DNA of 36,107 nt from Gammaproteobacteria bacterium (GTDB taxonomy: Bacteria > Pseudomonadota > Gammaproteobacteria > Pseudomonadales > Azotimanducaceae). A program made the translations under genes and the position numbers. Within the stretch, counting starts at the first letter, position 1, and the number at the start of each line of letters is the position of its first letter. The stretch covers positions 1 through 36,107 of the forward strand of contig JAPOVK010000060.1 of assembly GCA_026708185.1 (NCBI GenBank). The letters are read 5' to 3'. Below, one piece after another: positions 1 through 2,092 of this stretch. The notes under the pieces were generated by a model, which was given only the letters and a program-made list of their open reading frames with translations, was not told the origin of the DNA and did no database searches.

Positions 1-62
1 CCGGATAGTTTTGGAGGAGTTTCCCGCATATAGTTCAGTTTTACTAAGGCTAGCGCTACTTA
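1..62 (-). mobile_element. 5' part of a group I intron in 23S rRNA (insertion after U1931)
   Basis: Reading the minus strand, the 23S sequence is normal through CCTAAGGT, which ends at position 63 (E. coli U1931). It then departs completely from the expected continuation AGCGAAATTCC. The new sequence contains GCCTTAG at 50-44, which pairs with the exon end CTAAGGT and leaves a terminal U-G pair. This is the classic P1 helix and guide sequence of a group I intron. Further in, TATGCGGGAAACTCC (30-16) matches the conserved P element of group I introns. Position 1931 is a known group I insertion site in bacterial and organellar large-subunit rRNA. The rest of the intron, any homing endonuclease gene and the 3' splice site lie beyond the window. 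Confidence 0.85.

Positions 63-2092
<2,030 letters not shown>

Follow-up and report, generated by a model that had tools for sequence, protein, structure and literature searches.

A probable mobile group I intron after position 1931 of a 23S rRNA gene, cut by the end of a gammaproteobacterial contig

Introduction

At the left end of contig JAPOVK010000060.1, a 23S rRNA gene ceases to resemble rRNA a few dozen bases before the contig itself stops. The question raised by this locus is what those last bases are, i.e., the start of a mobile intron, some other insertion, or the product of a faulty assembly. The whole contig, 36,107 bases from a draft assembly of 65 contigs, was analysed and is referred to as the window; genomes and loci used for comparison carry G and L numbers. 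An earlier note, made from the letters alone, had proposed a group I intron interrupting the 23S rRNA at U1931.

Results

Departure from 23S rRNA

The contig's rRNA operon is encoded on the minus strand (Table 1). Read in that direction, the 23S exon runs to ACGGTCCTAAGGT, the last base of which is window position 63, and a further 62 bases lead to base 1. The Rfam model LSU_rRNA_bacteria fits with confidence up to window 63 and, beyond it, only with long gaps; the coordinates given in the earlier note for the exon end and the departure from rRNA are right. The exon end is CCTAAGGT, and the insertion follows directly after its final base, which we take to be U1931, using the E. coli numbering of the H69 stem-loop and counting along the sequence. 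The 62 bases of window 62-1 are not rRNA sequence, and locus L006 (genome G022) is interrupted after the same base.

Table 1. Coordinates of the rRNA operon, the visible intron start and its elements, and the complete relative in L006
Feature	Position	Strand	Remarks
16S rRNA	4532-2961	minus	rRNA operon, left end of contig
tRNA-Ile	2738-2662	minus	same rRNA operon as 16S and 23S
tRNA-Ala	2529-2454	minus	same rRNA operon as 16S and 23S
23S rRNA, 5' part (exon 1), ending at U1931	63..2092	minus	Rfam RF02541, 1634.9 bits, and alignment
Probable group I intron, first 62 nt, cut by contig end	1..62	minus	58/62 identity to L006 and L062 introns; profile E = 1.1e-8
P1 exon strand CTAAGGT	63..69	minus	pairs with 50-44
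P1 guide strand GCCTTAG, U-G pair at splice site	44..50	minus	read from sequence
Possible P10 strand CGCT	52..55	minus	complementary to AGCG starting the 3' exon
P3 5' strand CTGAAC, partner beyond contig end	33..38	minus	pairs 6/6 with GTTCAG in L006, L062 and L096
P4 and P5 5' strands with J4/5, TGCGGGAAACTCC	16..28	minus	by-eye comparison with RF00028 consensus line
L006 intron	L006:922-1554		633 nt

The H69 loop of the exon (window 70-87, minus strand) reads GTAAATATAAC, with adenine at 1914 in place of the cytosine found in nearly all other loci compared. This A1914 also occurs in G012 and G013, both of the same genus, and in L127, a Methylocystis bin; it is absent from G015. An exact-pattern search for the A1914 loop in 390 genomes of the order returned two matches, the source genome (G000) and G012, in a search that an unassembled 23S gene cannot match. 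An excerpt of PMC1190176 reports that C1914A has no clear phenotype in E. coli.

Intron elements in the 62 bases

The exon end CTAAGGT (69-63) pairs with GCCTTAG (50-44) through seven base pairs, the last of which is a U-G pair, as in the P1 helix of group I introns. Further downstream, TATGCGGGAAACTCC (30-16) is the sequence of J3/4-P4-J4/5-P5. Both the P1 pairing and a group I P element at the latter place had been named in the earlier note, and both are present; in addition, a strand capable of forming P10 lies between the two P1 strands, and the 5' strand of P3 precedes that of P4.

A search of window 1-400 with the Rfam group I model RF00028, at E up to 10, gave no group I match, a silence that we attribute to the absence of the P7/P3/P8 core from the fragment. 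Free folding of window 80-1 gives no unusual stability (z = -0.24), with 78 of 200 shuffles folding equally well. With 62 nucleotides visible and RF00028 silent, the bases might be taken for an ordinary intervening sequence or another insertion outside group I; this is extremely improbable given how closely they match complete group I introns inserted after that base, and given the profile match described below.

Similarity to other introns of the L1931 site

Genome contigs were scanned with the pattern ACGGTCCTAAGGTN{6,34}CCTTAG, which demands one guide sequence, and at least 112 stretches were found. Applied to all loci, the pattern gave 118 rows among the matches listed, with copies of the window and duplicates counted, and in 96 of them the 3' exon was in reach. 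For counts on the intron start, a set of 113 sequences was used, in which the window was kept, its copies and two known duplicates were dropped, and the doubtful L133 and L161 were retained. These two match the pattern without being intron-like afterwards, and were removed from the profile set and from the set of 94 complete introns.

Over the 62 bases, the best identities among the matches listed are 58 (L062, L006 and L116) and 57 (L096, L058 and L143). A 43-nt profile of the stretch following CCTTAG, trained on 89 pattern-chosen introns after exclusion of titles naming Gammaproteobacteria, Betaproteobacteria, plain Proteobacteria or a Klebsiella-labelled bin, matched window 43-4 (E = 1.1e-8). 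Elsewhere in the window the best value was E = 7.4, and in the reversed window E = 4.6; when the Klebsiella-labelled L157 was included (90 introns), the match stood at E = 9.5e-9. The contig thus ends in sequence that resembles other introns of the L1931 site, both by direct identity (58/62 with L006 and L062) and by profile. The bin that holds L157, titled Klebsiella pneumoniae (isolate MaE-04nov19-196), has an L1931-type intron start near a contig end, and its label looks doubtful.

The elements read in the window recur across the pattern-chosen introns. Among the matches listed, the G of the splice-site U-G pair (the first guide position) is present in 112 of the 113 sequences, and a P10 of at least 4 bp can be formed in 59 of 113, against 6.1 expected from shuffled loops. 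The P3 script placed 43 of the 94 complete introns, the other 51 counting neither for nor against; P3 pairs 6/6 in 40 of the 43, compared with a mean of 1.4 (maximum 5) for shuffled partners and 10.7 (maximum 18) for swapped partners. As for size and gene content among the matches listed, 60 of the 94 complete introns measure 600-800 nt and 28 are shorter than 400 nt, and the longest frame carries a LAGLIDADG-like motif in 59 of 94. The view of position 1931 as a LAGLIDADG hotspot is supported by this motif count, by the stretches that the pattern scan found and by an excerpt of PMC1995217.

Taken with the P1 and the P4/P5 strands, this similarity makes a group I intron at L1931 the best reading of the contig end, and we conclude with high confidence that a mobile group I intron sits directly after U1931 and that window 62-1 is its 5' end, truncated where the contig stops.

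Complete relatives

Complete introns occupy the same base in L006 (633 nt), L062 (633 nt) and L096 (631 nt), all with a full-length LAGLIDADG frame. They share with the intron of the source contig the insertion base and 58, 58 and 57 of the 62 bases, respectively; they differ from it in being complete, whereas it is known from its first 62 nt. In L006, the intron ends in ...AACCG directly before AGCGAAATTCC, and the 23S rRNA resumes at AGCGAAATTCCTTGTCGGGTAAGT; in L062, it likewise resumes at AGCGAAATTCC. The open frame of the L006 intron comprises 144 residues (138 from the first ATG) and matches PF00961 (LAGLIDADG_1) at 7.2e-26, and the best solved relative of its protein is 5gkk, a 'putative homing endonuclease' (1.1e-55). 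The covariance search suggested in the earlier note, silent on window 1-400, reaches 62.1 bits on this intron, above the Rfam cut-off. What the note had hoped to read beyond the contig end, i.e., resumption of the 23S at A1932, a group I core and a LAGLIDADG gene, is therefore found in the relative L006.

By analogy with these relatives, the full intron is most likely about 630 nt long with a single-motif LAGLIDADG endonuclease gene. Alternatively, the intron could be unspliced or a decayed remnant that has lost its endonuclease, in which case the mature ribosome would contain an interrupted 23S rRNA or this gene copy would be dead. Everett et al. 1999 name an unspliced case in their title, 'An unspliced group I intron in 23S rRNA' (Simkania L1931), and the 28 complete introns below 400 nt imply that short forms without an endonuclease gene exist. 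However, every element open to inspection in the visible 62 nt is intact, including the U-G pair and a P10 strand, and the frames of the nearest relatives (L006, L062 and L096) are full-length, which leaves an unspliced or decayed intron unlikely.

Over the last 300 bases of the exon, 23S identity to the source contig is 92% for G012 and G013, 86% for L006 and L062, and 80% for L096. An intron start at 58/62 beside adjoining 23S at 86% raised the question of horizontal transfer from the L006 group. The comparison is uninformative: L116, from Peribacteraceae, also has 58/62, and with the intron start so conserved the contrast proves nothing on transfer. Between L006 and L062, the introns are 96.7% identical and the flanking 23S sequences 98.9% and 93.4%, values that fit common descent within the L006 group.

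The site in related genomes

Among 58 genomes comprising the source genome and its relatives, 19 (own genome included) matched the last 90 bases of the contig at E ≤ 0.01. In 16 of the 19, only the 28 exon bases of the 90-base query were matched. The match in G022 spans the junction, with 95% identity over 82 bases (E = 1.3e-31), and that in G028 has 78% identity over query bases 15-75. G028, of the same family, holds a different group I intron of 345 nt after U1931 (L021 1515-1859).

Two further insertions were seen in the family. G028 has one of about 810 nt after U1917 (L021 691-1500), 14 exon bases upstream of its L1931 intron, with a LAGLIDADG-like frame; RF00028 gives no match to it at E ≤ 0.01. 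G032 has an insertion near L1951 (L017 ~1539-2359) whose group I match is weak (36.3 bits, below cut-off) and which holds a LAGLIDADG-like frame.

Within the genus, 15 genomes (G001-G015) were searched. A readable site was found in three (G012, G013 and G015; loci L007, L008 and L022), uninterrupted in each, and the other 12 gave no match. These three intron-free relatives, together with the junction's position close to the end of one of 65 draft contigs, raise the prospect of an assembly join, i.e., a chimeric contig end at which a piece of another organism's intron was attached to the 23S gene. Against this, the junction base is identical in many independent records, and the adjoining 23S has A1914 like G012 and G013 and unlike L006, and is more similar to the former (92% versus 86%). 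An intron-bearing 23S of the L006 type is therefore not the piece that was joined, and the join would have to fall exactly at the splice site, which makes such an artefact very unlikely.

The statement that rRNA introns at this site are uncommon in Gammaproteobacteria finds no support, as at least 15 of the at least 112 stretches bear titles naming Gammaproteobacteria or a subgroup (L059, L062, L065, L075, L082, L096, L097, L109, L114, L123, L143, L146, L147, L155 and L163). Plain Proteobacteria, Betaproteobacteria, Burkholderiaceae and the Klebsiella-labelled bin were left out of the 15, and because the pattern demands one guide sequence, the figure is a lower bound and gives no rate.

Searches of the source assembly

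The 3' part of the 23S gene was not found in searches of the source assembly, nor were a P7/P8 core and a 3' splice site of the L1931 intron. With the L006 intron as query (L006:921-1553, offset by one base from its coordinates in Table 1), the contig's own end was accompanied only by chance-level matches (E 1.5 and worse), and the best match of the L006 LAGLIDADG protein to the assembly had E = 0.305, with 62 nt of intron sequence available. Because the contig stops here and the searches of the assembly yielded nothing further of the intron, we infer the core, the 3' splice site, the endonuclease gene, splicing and homing from the relatives.

The group I search of the source assembly gave one match, in a tRNA gene on another contig (L002 1501-1779, minus strand; G000:C2:111677-111955; 47 bits, just below the Rfam cut-off). 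This intron splits a tRNA gene with a CAT anticodon, probably tRNA-Ile(CAU), directly after the anticodon; ARAGORN with introns allowed misreads the split tRNA as Arg(ccg). The same split is seen in 28 of 31 loci examined (L002 and L025-L054), and a group I match is present in 52 of 150 genomes of the family. A similar intron is present in the tRNA-Ile of Azoarcus.

Discussion

Splicing and homing of the proposed group I intron would proceed as follows. Once the intron RNA had folded, a guanosine in the P7 site would attack on the 3' side of U1931, which the U-G pair of P1 holds in place; in the second step, the released exon would attack behind the terminal G of the intron and be ligated to A1932, with P10 as guide. 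23S genes without the intron would be cut at L1931 by the endonuclease and would acquire a copy of the intron during repair. There is a small chance that the contig broke where it did because 23S copies with and without the intron coexist in the genome or population, i.e., that homing is in progress; if true, a homing event would have been caught in a genus whose three readable members are without the intron.

The find matters mainly for annotation: the 23S gene very probably carries a mobile intron of a known kind and is not simply broken at the contig end. The design of PCR primers and rRNA-based binning should take an intron at L1931 into account.

Introns at L1931 have long been known in many bacteria, archaea and organelles, and that of the source contig is an ordinary further case. 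An excerpt of PMC1995217 names Simkania, Thermotoga and Synechococcus as carriers of LAGLIDADG-encoding introns at L1931, mentions green-algal organelles and Acanthamoeba mitochondria, and likens L1931 introns to IC1; archaeal LSU/1931 introns are filed as IB4 in the part of PMC6125680 consulted. Position 1931 is also among the 23S insertions of CPR bacteria in a passage of PMC11270868, and a passage of PMC4853749 gives three unclassified introns in the 23S rRNA of the gammaproteobacterium Thiomargarita. Like the previously described L1931 introns of 654-700 nt, compared here by their partial descriptions, the intron of the source contig occupies the same site and, in its visible part, is of the same kind, and the size and endonuclease type of its relatives agree with theirs; the hosts differ. 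The archaeal LSU/1931 introns and the CPR insertions at 1931, as described in those excerpts, share the site and many carry LAGLIDADG genes, again in other hosts. The present locus is one more gammaproteobacterial example of this very widely scattered intron site, in a genus that also has members in which the site is empty.
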